Below the pieces are notes generated by a model. The model was not told the origin of the DNA. It did not search any database and worked only from the letters and a program-made list of their open reading frames with translations. A program made the position numbers and the translations under genes. Shown here one piece after another: positions 3,557 through 61,609 of a stretch of DNA of 64,000 nucleotides; within the stretch, counting starts at the first letter, position 1, and each line of letters starts with the position of its first letter. This stretch comes from Bordetella parapertussis (GTDB lineage Bacteria; Pseudomonadota; Gammaproteobacteria; Burkholderiales; JACQAP01): positions 1-64,000 of the forward strand of contig CAMDKM010000002.1 in the NCBI GenBank assembly GCA_945900965.1, written 5' to 3'.

Positions 3557-3793
3557 GACACGAAGGGCGCGAAGGAAGGCGACATAAAAGTCTTGGAAAT
3601 TCAAGTTGGACCTGAGTTACGGCCCCGTACACGGGATTAAATATTCCCTGGGTTTCCTAAAAGGGTACTCCACGCTATCGCGAGGTATTCGTGTTCCTTC
3701 GTGAACCCTTCGTGTTAGCGCGTTTGAATTTTTGCGGCACACAATTACCCAATAAAAAGGGCAAGCGCTTTTAACACGAAGGATCACGAAGGA
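3557..3793. repeat. CACGAAGG-type palindromic element with 30-bp insert
   Basis: A left arm of CACGAAGG-like units (3557-3577) faces a right arm of CCTTCGTG units (3689-3717). A second forward arm follows at 3772-3793. The right arm is interrupted at 3658-3687 by the 30-bp insert TAAAAGGGTACTCC...GGTA, placed exactly between CC and TTCGTG. The whole of 3420-3889 holds only repeats. Confidence 0.7.
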
Positions 3794-7334: not shown

Positions 7335-7567
7335 GCTCTCACCGCGGAGGACGCAGCAGCTTCAGCCGTAAGTGCTACGCCTTAAGGACGCGGAGGAAAA
7401 GCAGTCAGAAGGTTTGCCAAGTATTTTGCCTGCCGAGCCAGCGCGAAACTTAGTTAGCCTATGTTATTCGTAGCCCTTTCCCATCAATTCATTTTCACGA
7501 TTTTCCTCCGCGTCCTAAAAGGGTACTCCACGCTGCGCGAGGGTATCCGCGTCCTCCGCGGTGAGCG
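7335..7567. repeat. GCGGAGGAC-type palindromic element with inserts in both arms
   Basis: Left arm CTCACCGCGGAGGACGCAG...GGACGCGGAGGAAAA and right arm TTTTCCTCCGCGTCC...CCGCGTCCTCCGCGGTGAG. The left arm has a 28-bp insert at 7357-7384 and the right arm a different, 30-bp insert (TAAAAGGGTACTCC...GGGTA) at 7516-7545. Both sit at the CC|T junction of a repeat unit. Confidence 0.75.
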
Positions 7568-7574
7568 CGAATCT

Positions 7575-13602: not shown

Positions 13603-13701
13603 CGTGTGACGGGTTACAAGTGACCAAAACAAAGAGCAGGAGCGAAATCGGTGTCTTGGGTGACGTTGCGCGTCACTCGTCACTTGTAACTCGTCACGCC
13701 T
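13599..13701. repeat. GTGACGG-type palindromic spacer between glyA and nrdR
   Basis: Left arm GTGACGTGTGACGGGTTACAAGTG and right arm CACTCGTCACTTGTAACTCGTCAC are inverted copies built from about 7-base units around a 40-bp centre. It begins at the glyA stop codon and ends 5 bp before the nrdR ATG. Confidence 0.65.
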
Positions 13702-20830: not shown

Positions 20831-20975
20831 GCTTAACACGAAGGCGCACGAATACCCTCGCGTAAGCGTGGAGTACCCTTTTAGGTTTTCACGAAGGACA
20901 TGAAGGAAACCAAGTACAAGTGAATCCTGCCCGCGTTTTCCTGATACAGACTTCCTTCGTGGACCTTCGTGTTGA
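20831..20975. repeat. CACGAAGG-type palindromic element with 31-bp insert
   Basis: Left arm AACACGAAGGCGCACGAA...TTTTCACGAAGGACATGAAGG, right arm CTTCCTTCGTGGACCTTCGTGTT, with a spacer of only about 45 bp. The insert at 20853-20883 is the reverse complement form (TACCC...GGAGTACCCTTTTA). It again falls at the same unit junction. Confidence 0.74.
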
Positions 20976-24650: not shown

Positions 24651-24846
24651 CCACAGAGGACACAGAGGGCACAGAGAATAGATGGCAATAAGAAAAAATA
24701 GTCGGTGTATTGCTGTCTCTAGGTGAATTACATTAGGAGAGAAATTCGGTATTTTCTTGTGCGGCATTGCTGAACTGGATAAAAAAACATGTCACAGTTT
24801 CGAGGGCCTTGAGCTTTTCTCTGAGTACTCTGTGACGTCTGTGGCA
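24651..24846. repeat. CACAGAGG-type palindromic element, no insert
   Basis: Left arm CCACAGAGGACACAGAGGGC plus ACAGAG starts directly after the aminotransferase stop. Right arm CTCTGAGTACTCTGTGACGTCTGTGGC ends 21 bp before the next ATG. The interior is about 136 bp and A/T-richer than its surroundings. Confidence 0.7.
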
Positions 24847-25163: not shown

Positions 25164-25254
25164 TAACAGGGCAGGGGCGAGGGGCGAGGGGTGGAGCTCC
25201 GCAAGGCTGAGCGTTTATTCTTTTACCCGTCCCCCGTCCCCCGTCACCGTTCAG
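25164..25254. repeat. Heptamer palindrome (GGGGCGA / TCCCCCG units)
   Basis: GGCGAGGGGCGAGGGG on the left and CCCGTCCCCCGTCCCCCGTC on the right form an imperfect hairpin between two convergent genes. Confidence 0.5.
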
Positions 25255-26255: not shown

Positions 26256-27314
26256 ATGCACGAAGAGTTCGTCGGTACGATGCCGGTCCAGGAGCGACAT
26301 CGCTTCGACATTGCCAGTCTTGAGCGGTATCTGCGCGAGCATGTCGAGGCTTACGCGGGCAACCTGGAAGTCGAGCAGTTCAAGGGCGGGCAGTCCAATC
26401 CCACCTTCAAACTCAAGGCCGGTGGTCGCAATTACGTATTGCGCCGCAAGCCGCCGGGAAAATTATTGCCCTCCGCGCATGCGGTGGACCGCGAATATCG
26501 GGTGATTACCGCTCTGTTTGGCAGCGAAGTGCCGGTAGCAAAAACTTACTGCCTGTGTCTGGACGAGTCGGTCATCGGCACCGCTTTTTACGTGATGGAT
26601 TGTGTCGAGGGCCGGGTGCTTTGGGACCAGAAACTTCCCGGCATGACACCAGCGCAGCGAGCGGCGATATTCGATGAGCAGAATCGTGTGATCGCCGCCC
26701 TGCACAGGGTGGATTACCAAAAAGTCGGCTTGGCCGATTTCGGCAAGCCGGGCAGTTACGTCGAACGCCAGATCAATCGCTGGATCAAGCAATACCGCGC
26801 CTCGGAGACCGAACACATCCAGGCCATGGAAAATCTGATTGATTGGTTGCCGAAAAACCTGCCGCCCGGCGACGAAACCACCATCGTTCACGGCGATTTC
26901 CGTCTGGATAACACGATCTTCCATCCCACCGAGCCGCGCATTCTCGCGGTGCTGGATTGGGAACTCTCCACGCTGGGCCATCCGCTGGCGGATTTCGCCT
27001 ATCACTGTATGTACTGGCGGCTCACCCCCGAAGAATTCCGTGGCATTGGAGGCGTCGATTTCAAGGCACTTGGCATTCCGACTGAAGAAGAATACGTGGC
27101 CGCCTACTGCCGCCGTACCGGCCGCACTCACATCCCGAACTGGGATTTTTATCTTGCCTACAACATGTTTCGCCTGGCGGGCATCATCCAGGGCATCGCC
27201 AAACGCGCGCAGGACGGCACCGCGGCCAGCGCCCAGGCCGTCGAACAAGGCAAGCGCGCCCGACCGATGGCCGAAGCCGGCTGGCGCCAGGTCGAAAAAA
27301 TTCTGAAGGGCTGA
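26256..27314 (+). CDS. Aminoglycoside phosphotransferase-like kinase (acyl-CoA dehydrogenase-associated type)
   Basis: 352 aa. YVLRRKPPGKLLPSAH is the ATP-site lysine region, HGDFRLDNTIFHP is the catalytic loop and VLDWELSTLGHPLADFAY the metal-binding Asp region. These features, including the extra GGQSNPTF and RKPPG blocks, mark the branch found with acyl-CoA dehydrogenases rather than drug-resistance kinases. The substrate is probably a hydroxyacyl-CoA, by analogy only. CAGGAG precedes ATG 26256. Confidence 0.88.
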   Translation: MHEEFVGTMPVQERHRFDIASLERYLREHVEAYAGNLEVEQFKGGQSNPTFKLKAGGRNYVLRRKPPGKLLPSAHAVDREYRVITALFGSEVPVAKTYCLCLDESVIGTAFYVMDCVEGRVLWDQKLPGMTPAQRAAIFDEQNRVIAALHRVDYQKVGLADFGKPGSYVERQINRWIKQYRASETEHIQAMENLIDWLPKNLPPGDETTIVHGDFRLDNTIFHPTEPRILAVLDWELSTLGHPLADFAYHCMYWRLTPEEFRGIGGVDFKALGIPTEEEYVAAYCRRTGRTHIPNWDFYLAYNMFRLAGIIQGIAKRAQDGTAASAQAVEQGKRARPMAEAGWRQVEKILKG

Positions 27315-27322
27315 AAAACGCC

Positions 27323-27791
27323 AACACGAAGGCTCACGAAGGTAACACGAAGGAATCCTTGAAGCATGACGCTCAACAAGACTCGGGAAGAGGAGAAAAT
27401 TGGGCGACAGGTGCTGGCTGCGGCAATGCGTGTGCATACAGCGTTGGGGCCTGGACTGCTTGAGGGCGCCTATGAAATATGCCTGGCGAGCGAAATAGCT
27501 CAGCATGGGTTGGAAGGGCAAAGACAGGTTACTCTTCCATTGGTGTACAGGGAGCAAGGCATTGATGCCGGGTATCGTTTGGACATGCTGGTCGATGGAC
27601 GAGTGGTGGTCGAAGTTAAGGCGGTGGAGAAACTTCTGCCCATACATTTGGCACAAGTTCTGACCTACCTCAGACTCGGGAAATACTCATTGGGATATCT
27701 GCTGAACTTCAACGTACTGCACATGCGCCAAGGCATTAAGAGAATTGTTCTATAAATTATCCTTCGTGTTACCTTCGTGATCCTTCGTGTT
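27323..27791. mobile_element. GxxExxY gene bounded by 32-bp inverted repeats
   Basis: The left arm (27323-27354) and right arm (27760-27791) are inverted copies of three CACGAAGG units and differ at one base of 32. The interior of about 405 bp is almost entirely the GxxExxY coding sequence. The unit sits cleanly between two genes that look co-directional. The arms are the same family as the gene-less palindromes elsewhere in the window. Mobility is inferred from structure; no target duplication is obvious. Confidence 0.6.
27366..27755 (+). CDS. GxxExxY family protein (PD-(D/E)XK-like fold)
   Basis: 129 aa. The name motif is visible as G-L-L-E-G-A-Y within LGPGLLEGAYE. Next are YREQGIDAGYRLDMLVDGRVVVEVKAVEKL, where Asp...Glu-x-Lys resembles the PD-(D/E)XK nuclease core, and HLAQVLTYLRLGKYSLGYLLNFN. 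The biochemical function of the family is not established to my knowledge. The gene fills the space between the two inverted arms, and its ribosome region lies just inside the left arm. Codon use looks slightly more A/T-rich than neighbours by eye. Confidence 0.9.
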   Translation: MTLNKTREEEKIGRQVLAAAMRVHTALGPGLLEGAYEICLASEIAQHGLEGQRQVTLPLVYREQGIDAGYRLDMLVDGRVVVEVKAVEKLLPIHLAQVLTYLRLGKYSLGYLLNFNVLHMRQGIKRIVL

Positions 27792-27811
27792 GAGAGAGGT
27801 TGGTTGAAAGA

Positions 27812-28786
27812 ATGAAAGCCGTGTTATGCAAAGAACTGGGTCTGCCGGAAAAGCTCAAGGTCGAGCAGGTGCCGTCGCTGCGCGCGGCAAAGGGGCAGGT
27901 GGTGGTTAACGTGAAAGCCTGCGGGGTGAATTTTCCCGATACGCTCATTATTCAGGGCAAGTATCAATTCAAACCTGAACTGCCTTTTTCTCCCGGGGGA
28001 GAGGTGGCCGGGGTGGTGAAGGAAATCGGCGAAGGGGTTGTCAACCTCAAACCGGGCGACCGGGTGATTGCCTTCAATACCTGGGGAGGGTTCGCCGAAG
28101 AAATGGTGGTGGAGGCCGACCGTACTGTTCCGATGCCGAAGGACATGGACTACGTTCCGGCGGCGGCCTTGGTGCTGACCTATGGTACTTCCTACCATGC
28201 ACTCAAAGACCGCGCAGCGCTCAAGCGTGGTGAAACGATGCTGGTGCTGGGCGCGGCCGGGGGTGTGGGATTGGCGGCCATCCAGATCGGCAAGGCCATG
28301 GGTGCGCGGGTTATTGCCGCAGCTTCCAGCGATGCCAAACTTCAGGTGTGCAGGGAAAACGGCGCGGATGAAACGATCAACTACGGAAGCGAAGATTTGC
28401 GCACGCGAATCAAGGCCCTTACCGCCGGCAAGGGGATCGACGTCGTTTACGATCCGGTTGGCGGCCCGTATTCCGAACCCGCACTGCGCGACATGGCCTG
28501 GAACGGCCGCTTTCTGGTGGTGGGTTTTGCGGCGGGAGAAATTCCCAAAGTGCCCTTGAATCTGGCGTTGCTGAAAGGTTGCTCGATCGTGGGCGTATTC
28601 TGGGGCTCGTTCACCCGCAACGAACCGGCGCGCAACCATGAGAACAATCGCGAACTCATGGCAATGTATGCGGCGGGGAAAATCAAACCCCATATTCACG
28701 CCACCTACCCGCTGGAACGCGCGGCAGAAGCGCTCAACGAGGTCCTCAACAAGCGGGTGGCGGGGAAAGTGGTGTTGACGACCTGA
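27812..28786 (+). CDS. NADPH:quinone oxidoreductase-type zinc-independent MDR
   Basis: 324 aa medium-chain reductase. The GroES-like N-terminal domain (CGVNFPDTLIIQGKYQ, PFSPGGEVAGVV) is followed by a Rossmann domain with VLGAAGGVGLAAIQIGKAMG. No catalytic zinc cysteines are seen, as in quinone/enoyl reductases of this branch. The second of two close ATG codons (27812) gives the standard MKAVLC start. It follows the GxxExxY unit and may originally have been in line with the APH-like gene. Confidence 0.9.
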   Translation: MKAVLCKELGLPEKLKVEQVPSLRAAKGQVVVNVKACGVNFPDTLIIQGKYQFKPELPFSPGGEVAGVVKEIGEGVVNLKPGDRVIAFNTWGGFAEEMVVEADRTVPMPKDMDYVPAAALVLTYGTSYHALKDRAALKRGETMLVLGAAGGVGLAAIQIGKAMGARVIAAASSDAKLQVCRENGADETINYGSEDLRTRIKALTAGKGIDVVYDPVGGPYSEPALRDMAWNGRFLVVGFAAGEIPKVPLNLALLKGCSIVGVFWGSFTRNEPARNHENNRELMAMYAAGKIKPHIHATYPLERAAEALNEVLNKRVAGKVVLTT

Positions 28787-28813: not shown

Positions 28814-29142
28814 TTCACACGAAGGAACACGAAGGGCACGAAGGAAGACAAACAAAAAGTGCTCGAATCGGCGGGAATGTTAAAAATTTGGCAATTAGGG
28901 AAAGCTCAATAAGTGTCTTCCCCGCCCCCGACTAAAGCATTCGAGGGCAGGCTCCGGCGGGGAACCAGTCTCCTTTTCAAAGGCCTGGATTCCCGTTTTC
29001 ACGGGAATGACATTTGGGAGGGCATCCTGTGTTTCCCTAATCTTGTTCTGTTTGATCTTGATTTCCTTCGTGCCCTTCGTGTTACCTGAAAGGGTACTTC
29101 ACGCTATCGCGAGGGTATTCGTGATCCTTCGTGTTGAAGATT
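28814..29142. repeat. CACGAAGG-type palindromic element enclosing a REP/MITE copy
   Basis: Left arm CACACGAAGGAACACGAAGG with GCACGAAGG (28814-28847). Right arm CCTTCGTGCCCTTCGTGTTACC, insert 29087-29117 (TGAAAGGGTACTTC...GGGTA), then TTCGTGATCCTTCGTG. Between the arms lies a complete REP/MITE (28895-29040). Confidence 0.7.
28895..29040. mobile_element. REP/MITE copy with loop insert, nested
   Basis: Ends TTAGGGAAA...TTTCCCTAA. The first internal hairpin (CCCCGC/GCGGGG) has its loop enlarged by about 28 bp containing GACTAAAGCATTCGAGG, the same kind of insert that sits in the other hairpin of the copy at 18291-18435. Confidence 0.65.
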
Positions 29143-41392: not shown

Positions 41393-41421
41393 TTATCGTT
41401 AGGCCTTTAATGACAAAAGCG

Positions 41422-41565
41422 TTAACACGAAGGTACACGAAGGAAATCCTGAAAAAATGACCGAATGGAAATGTAGCCGGGAAAAAAATGTGCCGTGCGG
41501 GATATTCGTTTCACTTGATCTCGTCTTCCTTCGTGTTTCCTTCGTGATCCTTCGTATTAAAGCGT
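41422..41565. repeat. CACGAAGG-type palindromic element, no insert
   Basis: Left arm GTTAACACGAAGG/TACACGAAGG, right arm CTTCCTTCGTG/TTTCCTTCGTG/ATCCTTCGTATTAAAGCG, with about 80 bp between. It separates the two ligase genes. Confidence 0.72.
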
Positions 41566-41597
41566 TTAGCCTTTGGGTTTTACGCAATTGCCATGAC

Positions 41598-45249: not shown

Positions 45250-45412
45250 CTCTCTCACCGCGGAGGACGCAGAGGACGCGGAGGAAATTAAATGACAAAG
45301 CGAGCAATAAATGTATCACACGCAATGATAGGACAAGATTTCGTGCCTTTAACTCGGTACCGTTACTCCTGCTTTTCCTCTGCGTCCTCCGCGTCCTCCG
45401 CGGTGAGAGCTT
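45250..45412. repeat. GCGGAGGAC-type palindromic element inside the liv operon
   Basis: Left arm CTCTCACCGCGGAGGACGCAG/AGGACGCGGAGGAAA, right arm TTTTCCTCTGCGTCCTCC/GCGTCCTCCGCGGTGAGAG; spacer about 85 bp. Nearly perfect and insert-free, 10 bp before the livH ribosome site. Confidence 0.75.
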
Positions 45413-45434: not shown

Positions 45435-46307
45435 GTGGAAGCCTTTCTGCATCAGGTGTTTTCAGGCTTGGCGGCGGGCGGGGTGTATGCGAGCCTGGCC
45501 CTGGCGCTGGTGATGATTTATCAGTCGACCAGCCACATCAATTTTGCGCAGGGCGAAATGGCCATGTTCTCGACCTACCTGGCCTGGCACATGATGAATG
45601 TAGGCGTGCCGTATTGGTGGGCCTTTCTGCTGACCATCGCCATTTCGTTTGCGGCCGGGGTGGTGATCGAGCGGGTGATTATCCGCCCGGTGGAACACGC
45701 GCCGGTGTTGTCGATCATCACCGTGTTTGTCGCGCTGCTGGTGATCTTCAACAGCGTTGCCGGCTGGATTTACACCTACACCATCAAGACCTTTCCCAGT
45801 CCGTTTCCCGAGCAGCCGTTGTTCGGCAATCGTTTTATCTCCTCGCACGAGTTGGGCGCCATCGGCATCACCCTGGTGGTGCTGGTGACGCTGTTTGCGT
45901 TTTTTCGTTTCACGCCGCTCGGCTTGGCGATGCGCGCCGCGGCGCAGAATTCGGTGTCCAGTCGCCTGGTAGGGGTGCGCGTGAGCTGGATGCTGGCACT
46001 GGGCTGGGGGTTGGCAGCAGCGGTGGGCGCTGTCGCCGGCATGTTGGTCGCCCCGATTGTTTATCTGGAACCGAACATGATGTCCGGCATATTGCTCTAT
46101 GCCTTCGCCGCCGCCCTCGTGGGCGGTATAGACAATCCCTTCGGCGCGGTGTTCGGCGGTTTTCTGGTCGGCGTGCTGGAAAATCTGCTCGGCGCCTATG
46201 TGATCGGCACCGAACTGAAGCTGACCGTGGCGCTGGTGCTGATCATTGGTGTGTTGCTGTTTAAACCGACGGGGTTTTTTGGGAAGGTGTTTGTGACCAG
46301 GGTGTGA
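45435..46307 (+). CDS. livH: ABC transporter permease LivH
   Basis: 290 aa with about eight membrane segments. The LivH motif GGVYASLALALVMIYQSTSHINFAQGEMAMF is split across the first two helices, and AALVGGIDNPFGAVFGG is near the end. GTG 45435 is chosen because AGGAGG lies 8 bases upstream; an earlier in-frame GTG overlaps that site. Confidence 0.93.
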   Translation: MEAFLHQVFSGLAAGGVYASLALALVMIYQSTSHINFAQGEMAMFSTYLAWHMMNVGVPYWWAFLLTIAISFAAGVVIERVIIRPVEHAPVLSIITVFVALLVIFNSVAGWIYTYTIKTFPSPFPEQPLFGNRFISSHELGAIGITLVVLVTLFAFFRFTPLGLAMRAAAQNSVSSRLVGVRVSWMLALGWGLAAAVGAVAGMLVAPIVYLEPNMMSGILLYAFAAALVGGIDNPFGAVFGGFLVGVLENLLGAYVIGTELKLTVALVLIIGVLLFKPTGFFGKVFVTRV

Positions 46308-46550
46308 GGTGTGAGGTGTGTGGTGCGAGGTGCGAGGTGTGAGGTGGGAGGTGCGAGGTGCGAGGTGCGAAGGAATTATGGGTGAAGGGTGAAGGGTGAA
46401 GGGTGAAGGGTGAAGGGTGAAGGGTGAAGGAAGGGAAGCTCCCTTCCCCCTCCGGGGGAAGGGCTGGGGATGAGGGGAGTTCTTTCTGAATTTTCTCGTA
46501 CCTCACACCTCTCACACCTCGTACCTCAGACCTCAGACTTCACACCTTGT
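46301..46550. repeat. Minisatellite and hairpin between livH and livM
   Basis: It starts within the livH stop codon with GTGTGAG/GTGCGAG units, then seven perfect GGTGAAG units (46381-46429), a CCCTTCCCCC/GGGGGAAGGG hairpin (about 46440-46463), and finally CTCACAC/CTCGTAC units in inverse orientation. No gene. Confidence 0.8.
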
Positions 46551-55389: not shown

Positions 55390-55418
55390 GTCGGTCAGCC
55401 TCATTCTTCAAAAAAAGC

Positions 55419-55627
55419 GCTCACCGCGGAGGACGCCAAGGACGCGGAGGAAAATCGAAACAATCGGGAAATGTAAGTGTAAGTGATTGTTCAGCACAGC
55501 CCGCCTATTTTGAGGAGGGGAGGCTCTGCTCAAGTCTCGCCAATTTTTACAATGGGGTCCATTGCAGCCTAAGCATCATTCGTATGTCTTTCCTCCGCGC
55601 CCTCAGCGTCCTCCGCGGTGAGAGAGT
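55419..55627. repeat. GCGGAGGAC-type palindromic element, no insert
   Basis: Left arm GCTCACCGCGGAGGACGCC/AAGGACGCGGAGGAAAA, right arm TTTCCTCCGCGCCCTCAGCG/TCCTCCGCGGTGAGAG; interior about 135 bp. Confidence 0.72.
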
Positions 55628-55649
55628 TGCTTTAAGATCTTTCGGAAAT

Positions 55650-57259: not shown

Positions 57260-57644
57260 CCCGCGTATCAGGCAAGGTGAAAATCAAGGAGGTACGGCGC
57301 CTTCGGTCGATGCTCAGACCCTTGACTTGACGAAATTATTTAGGTGGTCGATAGTCCCGCCACCTTCATCCGGTCGGCTGGCACAGTGTGTGTCGGTTAC
57401 CGAGTCGGAAACAACAAAAAAGGAAACACTGAATAAGTGTCTTCCCCGCGAAGGCGGGGAACCAGATGTCTTTGAAAAACCTGGATTCCCGTTTTCACGG
57501 GAATGACAATTTGGGACTTATTCAGTGTTTCCAAAATACTTTCGGAGAACGCATGGTTGGAGTCACTGGCATGGAGTACTGCGCTGCGCTTGCCGGCCGC
57601 GATGATCCGCTTCAGCGTAAAAGCGCCTTGAGGGCGCTGGCACG
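57260..57644. other. Gene-free region with a REP/MITE copy
   Basis: About 385 bp, containing the element at 57422-57532. Short frames through the element show no protein-like composition. Confidence 0.5.
57422..57532. mobile_element. REP/MITE copy, compact form
   Basis: 111 bp with perfect 17-bp terminal inverted repeats (GGAAACACTGAATAAGT and its complement). Internal hairpins are CCCCGC-GAAG-GCGGGG and TTCCCGT-TTTC-ACGGGAA, both without loop inserts. A-rich flanks (AAAA on both sides) could be a target duplication. This is the reference copy for the family in the window. Confidence 0.75.
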
Positions 57645-61419: not shown

Positions 61420-61442
61420 GGTTTTTTGCGGGGAAAAGAATC

Positions 61443-61597
61443 CCTCACCGCGGAGGACGCCGAGGACGCGGAGGAAAGCAAAAAAATACGGAAATTTGTT
61501 CCGCATGCTTGGGAGCGGCATCGAGAAATGTGGAGCTTTCTTCTAATCTATTGCCTTGGTTTTCCTCTGCGTCCTCCGCGTCCTCCGCGGTGAGAGA
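61443..61597. repeat. GCGGAGGAC-type palindromic element, no insert
   Basis: Left arm CTCACCGCGGAGGACGCCG/AGGACGCGGAGGAAA, right arm TTTCCTCTGCGTCCTCCGCG/TCCTCCGCGGTGAGAG. It separates the two paralogous MFS genes. Confidence 0.74.
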
Positions 61598-61609
61598 TTT
61601 GGTTTAGAT

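Follow-up and report, generated by a model that had tools for sequence, protein, structure and literature searches.

What is a small gene of the GxxExxY family doing between two nearly perfect inverted repeats, and how does it relate to the many hairpins with similar arms that lie around it without a gene? The question is raised by a locus in a window of 64,000 nt, the whole stretch of DNA analyzed here (contig CAMDKM010000002.1 of assembly GCA_945900965.1; its genome is designated G000, and three congeners G001, G002 and G003). A first-pass annotation had described inverted arms at 27323-27354 and 27760-27791 that match at 31 of 32 positions, with three units in each arm and a gene filling the interior. 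This description was reproduced at those coordinates; with arms 1 nt longer, 32 of 33 positions are identical once one arm is inverted, and the interior holds a single intact ORF. The parts of the element are as follows.

27322-27354, + strand: left (upstream) arm, three CACGAAGG units at 27325, 27335 and 27346 with spacers CT and TAA (repeat search, inverted match)
27366-27755, + strand: GxxExxY gene, 129 aa, predicted PD-(D/E)XK nuclease of Cas4/RecB type with conserved active-site residues (ORF, profiles, predicted fold)
27402-27407, + strand: codons of G13 and R14 in helix 1; both residues covary with unit letter 5, which is A at this locus (covariation analysis)
27582-27668, + strand: predicted catalytic core D73, E83-x-K85, Q97-x3-Y101 (invariant in 54 sequences)
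27760-27792, - strand: right (downstream) arm, three CACGAAGG units, inverted (repeat search, arm alignment)

The element is located between an aminoglycoside-phosphotransferase-like gene that ends at 27314 and a quinone-oxidoreductase-like gene with its ATG at 27812, both named from a reading of their translations. The window contains 25 copies of CACGAAGG, where 2.7 are expected and 100 shuffles gave 7 at most, and CACGAAGGNNCACGAAGG occurs 48 times in the whole genome, where the pattern read backwards does not occur. Folded as single-stranded DNA, the element has a z-score of -5.3.

The 129-aa protein matches both TIGR04256 (GxxExxY; E 6e-38, 129.8 bits, cut-off 35) and PF13366 (PDDEXK_3; E 3e-39, 134.5 bits, cut-off 22). 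The Asp...Glu-x-Lys pattern that had been claimed for GxxExxY proteins is present as D73, E83 and K85. Beside it stand H24, E33 and a Q97-xxx-Y101 motif. In an alignment of 54 relatives, out of 69 sequences first chosen, H24, D73, E83, K85, Q97 and Y101 never vary, and conservation of E33 is 90% or higher. PD-(D/E)XK nucleases of the RecB/Cas4 (QxxxY) branch carry the motifs H, D, ExK and QxxxY, and the window protein has both the motifs and, in its model, the fold of this branch. The AlphaFold2 model (pLDDT 96.2) is Cas4-like: Foldseek against the PDB placed SSO0001 (4ic1), which we take to be a Cas4 protein, at the top (probability 0.92-1.00 over four chains, best E 7.5e-3), followed by lambda exonuclease, DrdV and AdnAB, and no match to a solved structure reached an E of 1e-3 or below. 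Structural alignment to 4ic1 gave a Z of 9.6 over 98 residues at 3.2 Å, the sole Z of at least 8; Hjc Holliday resolvases aligned at Z 7.3, under the level taken as telling, and were set aside. A sequence search of solved structures found nothing at E up to 10, the best PHROGs match had an E of 0.03, and Pfam at E up to 1 returned PDDEXK_3 only, with no HUH Y1 tyrosine transposase. Based upon the Cas4-like predicted fold and the invariant active-site residues, the GxxExxY protein is likely to be a catalytically competent nuclease. It resembles Cas4 nucleases in predicted fold and in the D, ExK and QxxxY motifs, but differs in being only 129 aa long and bracketed by its own inverted arrays. A passage in one published study (PMC8934634) describes a pipeline in which the GxxExxY domain was assigned to a gene that another tool called cas4.

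Inverted arms are a regular companion of this gene family. Sequence upstream of the gene was aligned with the inverted downstream sequence for loci of the window's own genus and for 80 loci from many phyla, and 89 of the 93 loci were scored (three were too near contig ends, and L010 was also left out). A score of at least 24 was reached by 75 of the 89 loci, as compared to 77 of 1780 control intervals (4%), of equal size and from other parts of these loci, and 13 of 890 shuffles; with a score of at least 28 the counts were 65/89, 26/1780 and 0/890. Among the 14 loci scoring below 24, L009 reaches 40 at corrected coordinates, and several others have weak or displaced arms. A further sample from the phylum, with a family match in 30 of 199 genomes, gave arms at a score of at least 26 in 24 of 28 loci (1 of 29 was too short). 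The first-pass annotation had reasoned that mobility would be unlikely if GxxExxY genes elsewhere showed no such arms; they are, on the contrary, regularly enclosed by them. The whole arm follows the protein tree weakly (Mantel rho 0.18, 64 of 93 loci). Phage records held no GxxExxY locus, and IMG/VR held one, with arms, while two further scans with other members of the family found none. In Bacteroides finegoldii (L201) the gene and both arms sit inside the otherwise tight pair of radA and a gene for an FAD-dependent protein, and in Sphingomonas parapaucimobilis (L202) the gene sits inside the otherwise tight pair fabD/fabG with the upstream arm only. The radA cassette was considered as a clean empty-site case and rejected, as the relative found has another gene there. 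When the fetched loci were scanned for other genes within such arms, the 18 rows returned comprised GxxExxY, four ORFs taken to be probable spurious frames, and IVP genes recognized by a rough motif.

The arms are built from tandem copies of an 8-bp unit, C-R-C-N-R-A-G-n. Its grammar was derived from 465 units at 80 loci where each arm has two or more, using a search pattern with C1, C3, A6 and G7 fixed. At letters 2 and 5 nearly every unit has A or G, and the agreement between arms is 0.89 and 0.90 within loci as compared to 0.53 and 0.47 between loci; letters 4 and 8 are less constrained, agreeing at 0.56 and 0.51 within loci. The majority letters 2 and 5 are identical in both arms of 73 of the 80 loci (shuffled mean 22, maximum of 5000 shuffles 39). 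Paralogues within G000 differ in their unit, with CACGAAGG at the window gene, CGC(A/G)GAGG at L002 and CGCnAAGG at L001. Since different paralogues in one genome have different units, it is the gene copy and not the host that sets the unit.

Letter 5 tracks residue 14 of the protein beyond phylogeny. Covariation was analyzed in sets of 82 and 83 of 120 loci, the latter including a frame-broken fragment (L007); loci with fewer than three pattern units, mixed letters, stops or short proteins were left out. Letter 5 changes 17 times on a protein tree from which residues 9-19 were left out. Its mutual information is 0.685 with residue 14 and 0.524 with residue 13; in none of 400 label sets simulated along the tree at a matched rate did any column exceed 0.501. 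For letter 2, no covarying column was found among the protein columns. Because the arms agree in their unit letters and letter 5 covaries with residue 14, the gene and its arms belong together.

Residues R, K, N, T, S and A at position 14 go with letter A, and E, G, Q and D with letter G. As a rule, these classes fit 73 of the 83 training loci, with 6 wrong and 4 without a call. The rule was fixed before further loci were scored, 8 of 18 being scorable, and it was right in 7 of those 8. Five of them (L206-L210) had not been seen before and were all called correctly, although all five carry letter A and other genes of their genomes were in the training set; the arms of the remaining three had been seen before the rule was fixed, and of these L203 and L205 were right and L201 (S14 with letter G) was wrong. 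None of five later loci was scorable by the same criteria, and by eye L220 contradicts the rule (S14, CACAGAG arms). Both failures are T13 S14, and T13 goes with letter G in 26/26 loci of the covariation set, which suggests a role for residue 13 as well. Of 18 phylogenetically independent pairs with unlike letters 5, 14 also have unlike residue-14 classes, always in the direction predicted; the p value of 6e-5 for these pairs overstates the case, as the classes themselves derive in large part from these loci, and the result is thus a consistency check and not a clean test. The pair comparison placed H in the class of letter A, unlike the fixed rule, which affected no counted pair. If columns are instead ordered by how often the residue simply changes across the independent pairs, residue 111 comes first and residue 14 only sixth, because residue 14 also varies inside a class. 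Where residue 14 is aromatic, units often end in AT or AA rather than AG, with exceptions (F14 with CACGGAA; Y14 with CGCAGATT).

The same change can be followed at orthologous sites. Flanking sequences in the genus define three groups of gene-bearing sites common to several species. In one, L012 (N14) has CGCnAAGG arms and L005 (G14) has CGC(A/G)GAG in 7 of 8 units, with an identical 8, 8, 11 spacing. In another, L001 (S14) and L006 (H14) have CGCnAAGG arms, as compared to CAC(A/G)GAG arms at L009 (G14). Both arms changed together in these two groups. The third group pairs CGCrGAGG (L002) with CGCnAAGG (L013, which is outside the residue-14 set). It is very probable, in our judgment, that the GxxExxY protein recognizes its own units.

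The first-pass annotation also stated that the same arm type recurs across the window without a gene. This is the case for CACGAAGG, and hairpins with other units are present as well (no strand assigned).

3559-3792: cluster of CACGAAGG arrays forming gene-less hairpins
7335-7568: gene-less hairpin of CGCGGAGG type; other sequence, with a REP-like palindrome among it, breaks up the arms
20837-20971: gene-less hairpin with CACGAAGG arms, member of a MITE-like subfamily (subfamily alignment)
24652-24845: gene-less hairpin of CACAGAGG type, missing from the syntenic gap in G001 and G002
28818-29133: gene-less hairpin with CACGAAGG arms, another repeat in the loop, right arm interrupted by a REP-like palindrome
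41415-41567: gene-less hairpin with CACGAAGG arms
45252-45409: gene-less hairpin with CGC(A/G)GAGG units and a CTCAC tip, as in the arms of the G000:C5 gene (L002)
55405-55637: gene-less hairpin of CGCGGAGG type
61439-61599: gene-less hairpin of CGCGGAGG type
About 3665-3695, 7528-7552, 20845-20890 and 29085-29125: REP-like palindrome GGGTACTCCACGCTATCGCGAGGGTA

Spaced unit pairs, with each neighboring pair within one arm counted, number 466, 352, 336 and 282 in G000, G001, G002 and G003, against 6, 19, 15 and 20 for the reversed pattern, and G000 has four GxxExxY gene matches against its several hundred pairs. Unit types of gene arms and gene-less hairpins in one genome partly match. Among the units of the first 100, 100, 50 and 100 listed pairs of the four genomes, CGCnAAG makes up 23, 23, 49 and 2%, and the two genes found in G003 both lack a CGCnAAG arm. 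On the other side, CACrGAG makes up 27% of listed G000 units and CGCnGAG 24% of listed G001 units, and no gene with either arm was found there. A wider comparison of unit counts with GxxExxY presence over 199 genomes was judged unusable, as many listed matches look like GC-rich coding sequence; within family f31, 22 genomes with GxxExxY have a median of 15 pairs and 17 genomes without it a median of 4 (p 7e-4), but the reversed control likewise differs (6 vs 4, p 0.016). One genome, G032, has 62 one-strand matches of the reversed control pattern, which represent a repeat of another kind.

From stretches of the four genomes, 63 non-redundant hairpins with interiors under 330 nt were collected. 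Sorted by likeness of the interior, the largest groups hold 12, 9, 4 and 3 members, and 29 hairpins are singletons. In hairpin alignments, conservation extends some 5 nt past the first unit, to a tip such as TTGAAC or TTCAC, and there the inverted match drops to about background. By eye, the tips of 68 listed hairpins are TTGAAC, CTCAC/TTCAC, TTAGC, TTAA and similar, with no GTAG/CGTC tag. Within a single hairpin the two arms match each other slightly better than they match the arms of others of that type in the genome (median 1.28 vs 1.20, p 0.006). Target-site duplications, sought at k 3-8 and offsets 0-21 in the 63 hairpins, were not above shuffled pairings.

Several other repeats were seen among these hairpins. 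The MITE-like CACGAAGG subfamily (L106-L112, L120, L121, L124; 20837-20971 in the window) has an extra outer palindrome with tips near CCCGGATATTCCATTAG, and some copies, by eye, show direct repeats of 4-5 nt outside it. The REP-like palindrome is about 35 nt long and recurs inside hairpin arms or loops, also in L118-L125. At 57422-57532 is a MITE-like element with inverted ends GGAAACACTGAATAAGT and a core GGATTCCCG...CGGGAATGAC; a similar core lies at 28900-29040, inside the hairpin at 28818-29133, and at many places in the genome.

The first-pass annotation proposed the arm-gene-arm unit as a possible parent of the gene-less hairpins, and suggested comparing the locus in related genomes; its interpretation is partly supported. 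Between the same two genes, G001 and G002 retain the arms and, of the gene, only some 60-70 bases at its 3' end; in G003 a short scar with one or two units is left. Deletion relics therefore do arise, and in this respect the proposal holds. It does not extend to the hairpins at large: only 1 of the 63 interiors resembles GxxExxY (tblastn E up to 0.01), and this one is the relic at the window locus's orthologous site. The remaining hairpins have other interiors, some in MITE-like families, and deletion copies of the gene were rejected as their general origin.

At shared sites, the flanks in G000 are 70-80% identical to those in the other three genomes, and the flanks of those three are 82-89% identical to one another, which points to an old insertion that has decayed at the window locus. 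As gene-bearing sites are old and shared in the genus, the difference at this locus is a loss and not a recent gain. Support for the suggested mobility is only indirect. The CACAGAGG hairpin at 24652-24845 is absent from the corresponding gap in G001 and G002, and hairpins have sharp ends and fall into homologous families; against this, they lack a target-site duplication. The presence and absence of that hairpin may reflect gain in G000 or loss in the others. No exact empty-site junction was found for any insertion; the aligned flanks of relatives are only about 69-89% identical.

We propose that GxxExxY is a small Cas4/RecB-like PD-(D/E)XK nuclease that would recognize C-R-C-N-R-A-G-n units in the DNA around its own gene, repeated about three times in each of two inverted arms, with residues 13-14 of the N-terminal helix reading base 5 of the unit. 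The arm-gene-arm form would be the autonomous form of a selfish repeat element, and the hundreds of gene-less hairpins with such units its non-autonomous copies. The protein would bind the units directly and cut or nick arms extruded as a hairpin or cruciform. The hairpins could then spread and become homogenized by a single-strand or repair-based copying that leaves no duplication, and the units of both arms would be rewritten when the specificity shifts. Taken as a whole, this model of a sequence-specific PD-(D/E)XK nuclease with a cognate inverted-array element, working in a REP/RAYT-like manner with an unrelated enzyme, is in our view a probable one.

Three other explanations were weighed against this nuclease-and-repeat model. 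The least improbable of them, though still unlikely, is that GxxExxY is a domesticated or defence nuclease whose arms are autoregulatory binding sites, the hairpins being independent REP or MITE repeats moved by another transposase. The age of the gene-bearing sites in the genus fits this, as do the extra outer tips of the one MITE-like subfamily and the abundance of unit types for which no gene was found. However, the defence-system profiles gave nothing beyond weak Cas4 profiles (E 0.04-0.05), autoregulation has no need of inverted arms on both sides, and the hairpin unit types vary by genome partly with the gene arms, as seen in the scarcity of CGCnAAG in G003. A homing or gene-drive process, in which the nuclease cuts alleles with gene-less hairpins and repair copies the gene in, would suit the predicted PD-(D/E)XK fold and the units common to gene-bearing and gene-less forms, the arms providing homology. 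We consider it very unlikely: G000 has only four gene matches for several hundred unit pairs, and with three groups of sites orthologous between species and an old window site, there is no sign of the gene having been copied into many hairpins.

It is also quite unlikely that the element acts at the RNA level in the manner of 23S rRNA intervening sequences (IVS), with arms that pair in RNA, RNase III as the cutting enzyme and the gene as a passenger. A precedent is the IVS of Coxiella, described in part of PMC4990558, in which a 28-bp stem holds an S23p ORF in its loop and is cut by RNase III; moreover, S23/IVP genes (PF05635) have the arm-gene-arm layout in most of their matches in our four genomes. 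At 97 loci, however, differences between arms give G.U no more often than A.C (97 vs 109, p 0.44), so there is no sign of pairing kept as sense RNA. The window locus lies between protein genes, no Rfam family reaches its gathering threshold in the window, and RNA pairing leaves the tie between unit letter and protein residue unexplained. What the GxxExxY element has in common with the IVS is a stem of inverted repeats with a small ORF in its loop, of which the ORF decays and the stem stays (PMC4990558); it differs in lying outside rRNA, in its unrelated protein and in showing no RNA-pairing constraint.

MITEs of DDE insertion sequences are short hairpin copies with sharp ends that form homologous families and are flanked by a target-site duplication. 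The gene-less hairpins are likewise short, sharp-ended and in homologous families, but the 63 GxxExxY-type hairpins are without the duplication, and the enclosed gene is predicted to encode a nuclease and not a DDE transposase. The closest known logic is that of REP/RAYT systems (REPtrons) and TIRtrons, which passages of PMC3733652 describe as a gene between inverted palindromic repeats with many gene-less copies in the genome, and for which that text doubts self-propagation of the REPtrons. GxxExxY genomes have the same combination of a flanked gene and many gene-less repeats. Unlike RAYT, an HUH tyrosine transposase, GxxExxY is a predicted PD-(D/E)XK nuclease of Cas4/RecB type; its arms are tandem arrays of an 8-bp unit, its hairpin tips are without a GTAG tag (by eye), and it displays amino-acid/base covariation. 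We file the element as categorically new, given that each kind of known element tested failed on a tested feature, while its working logic is REPtron-like.

GxxExxY proteins are annotated in many phyla. In the open-licence papers searched, no function for GxxExxY and no paper on TIGR04256 were found, and searches with the repeat words and with broader terms gave no such element among the matches listed. A broader claim is possible but remains tentative: a new, phylum-spanning class of selfish element in which a Cas4-like nuclease would read an 8-bp word through residues 13-14, keep the words of both arms alike and spread hairpins in trans, with words following residue changes at the arms and genome-wide. 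If this is true, the GxxExxY family would gain a function as sequence-specific nuclease of its own repeats, and an owner would be found for a large class of intergenic hairpins, so far unexplained, in environmental bacteria. It would also provide a natural case of amino-acid/base covariation in a Cas4-like nuclease, testable with one residue and one base, and a second repeat/nuclease partnership beside REP/RAYT, with an unrelated fold, in which to study how genome-wide repeats and a protein co-evolve. The parallel layout at the unrelated S23/IVP genes would then suggest that inverted word-array cassettes are a platform for several protein families.

The S23/IVP genes (four-helix-bundle proteins, PF05635; L155-L171 in G000-G003) are also enclosed by inverted arrays of short units. 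Arms at a score of at least 26 flank 15 of the 17 matches in the four genomes, where L170 and L171 look like halves of one gene, and the units differ from gene to gene (GTGATTGG, GGGGCGAG, CGTGAATG, GGTGAAGG and others). In the window, gene-less hairpins with IVP-like units (GGGGCGAG, GGTGTGAGG, GTGAC) occur at 25174-25245, 46301-46547 and 13606-13697, and the hairpin at 25174-25245 is missing from the same gap in G002.
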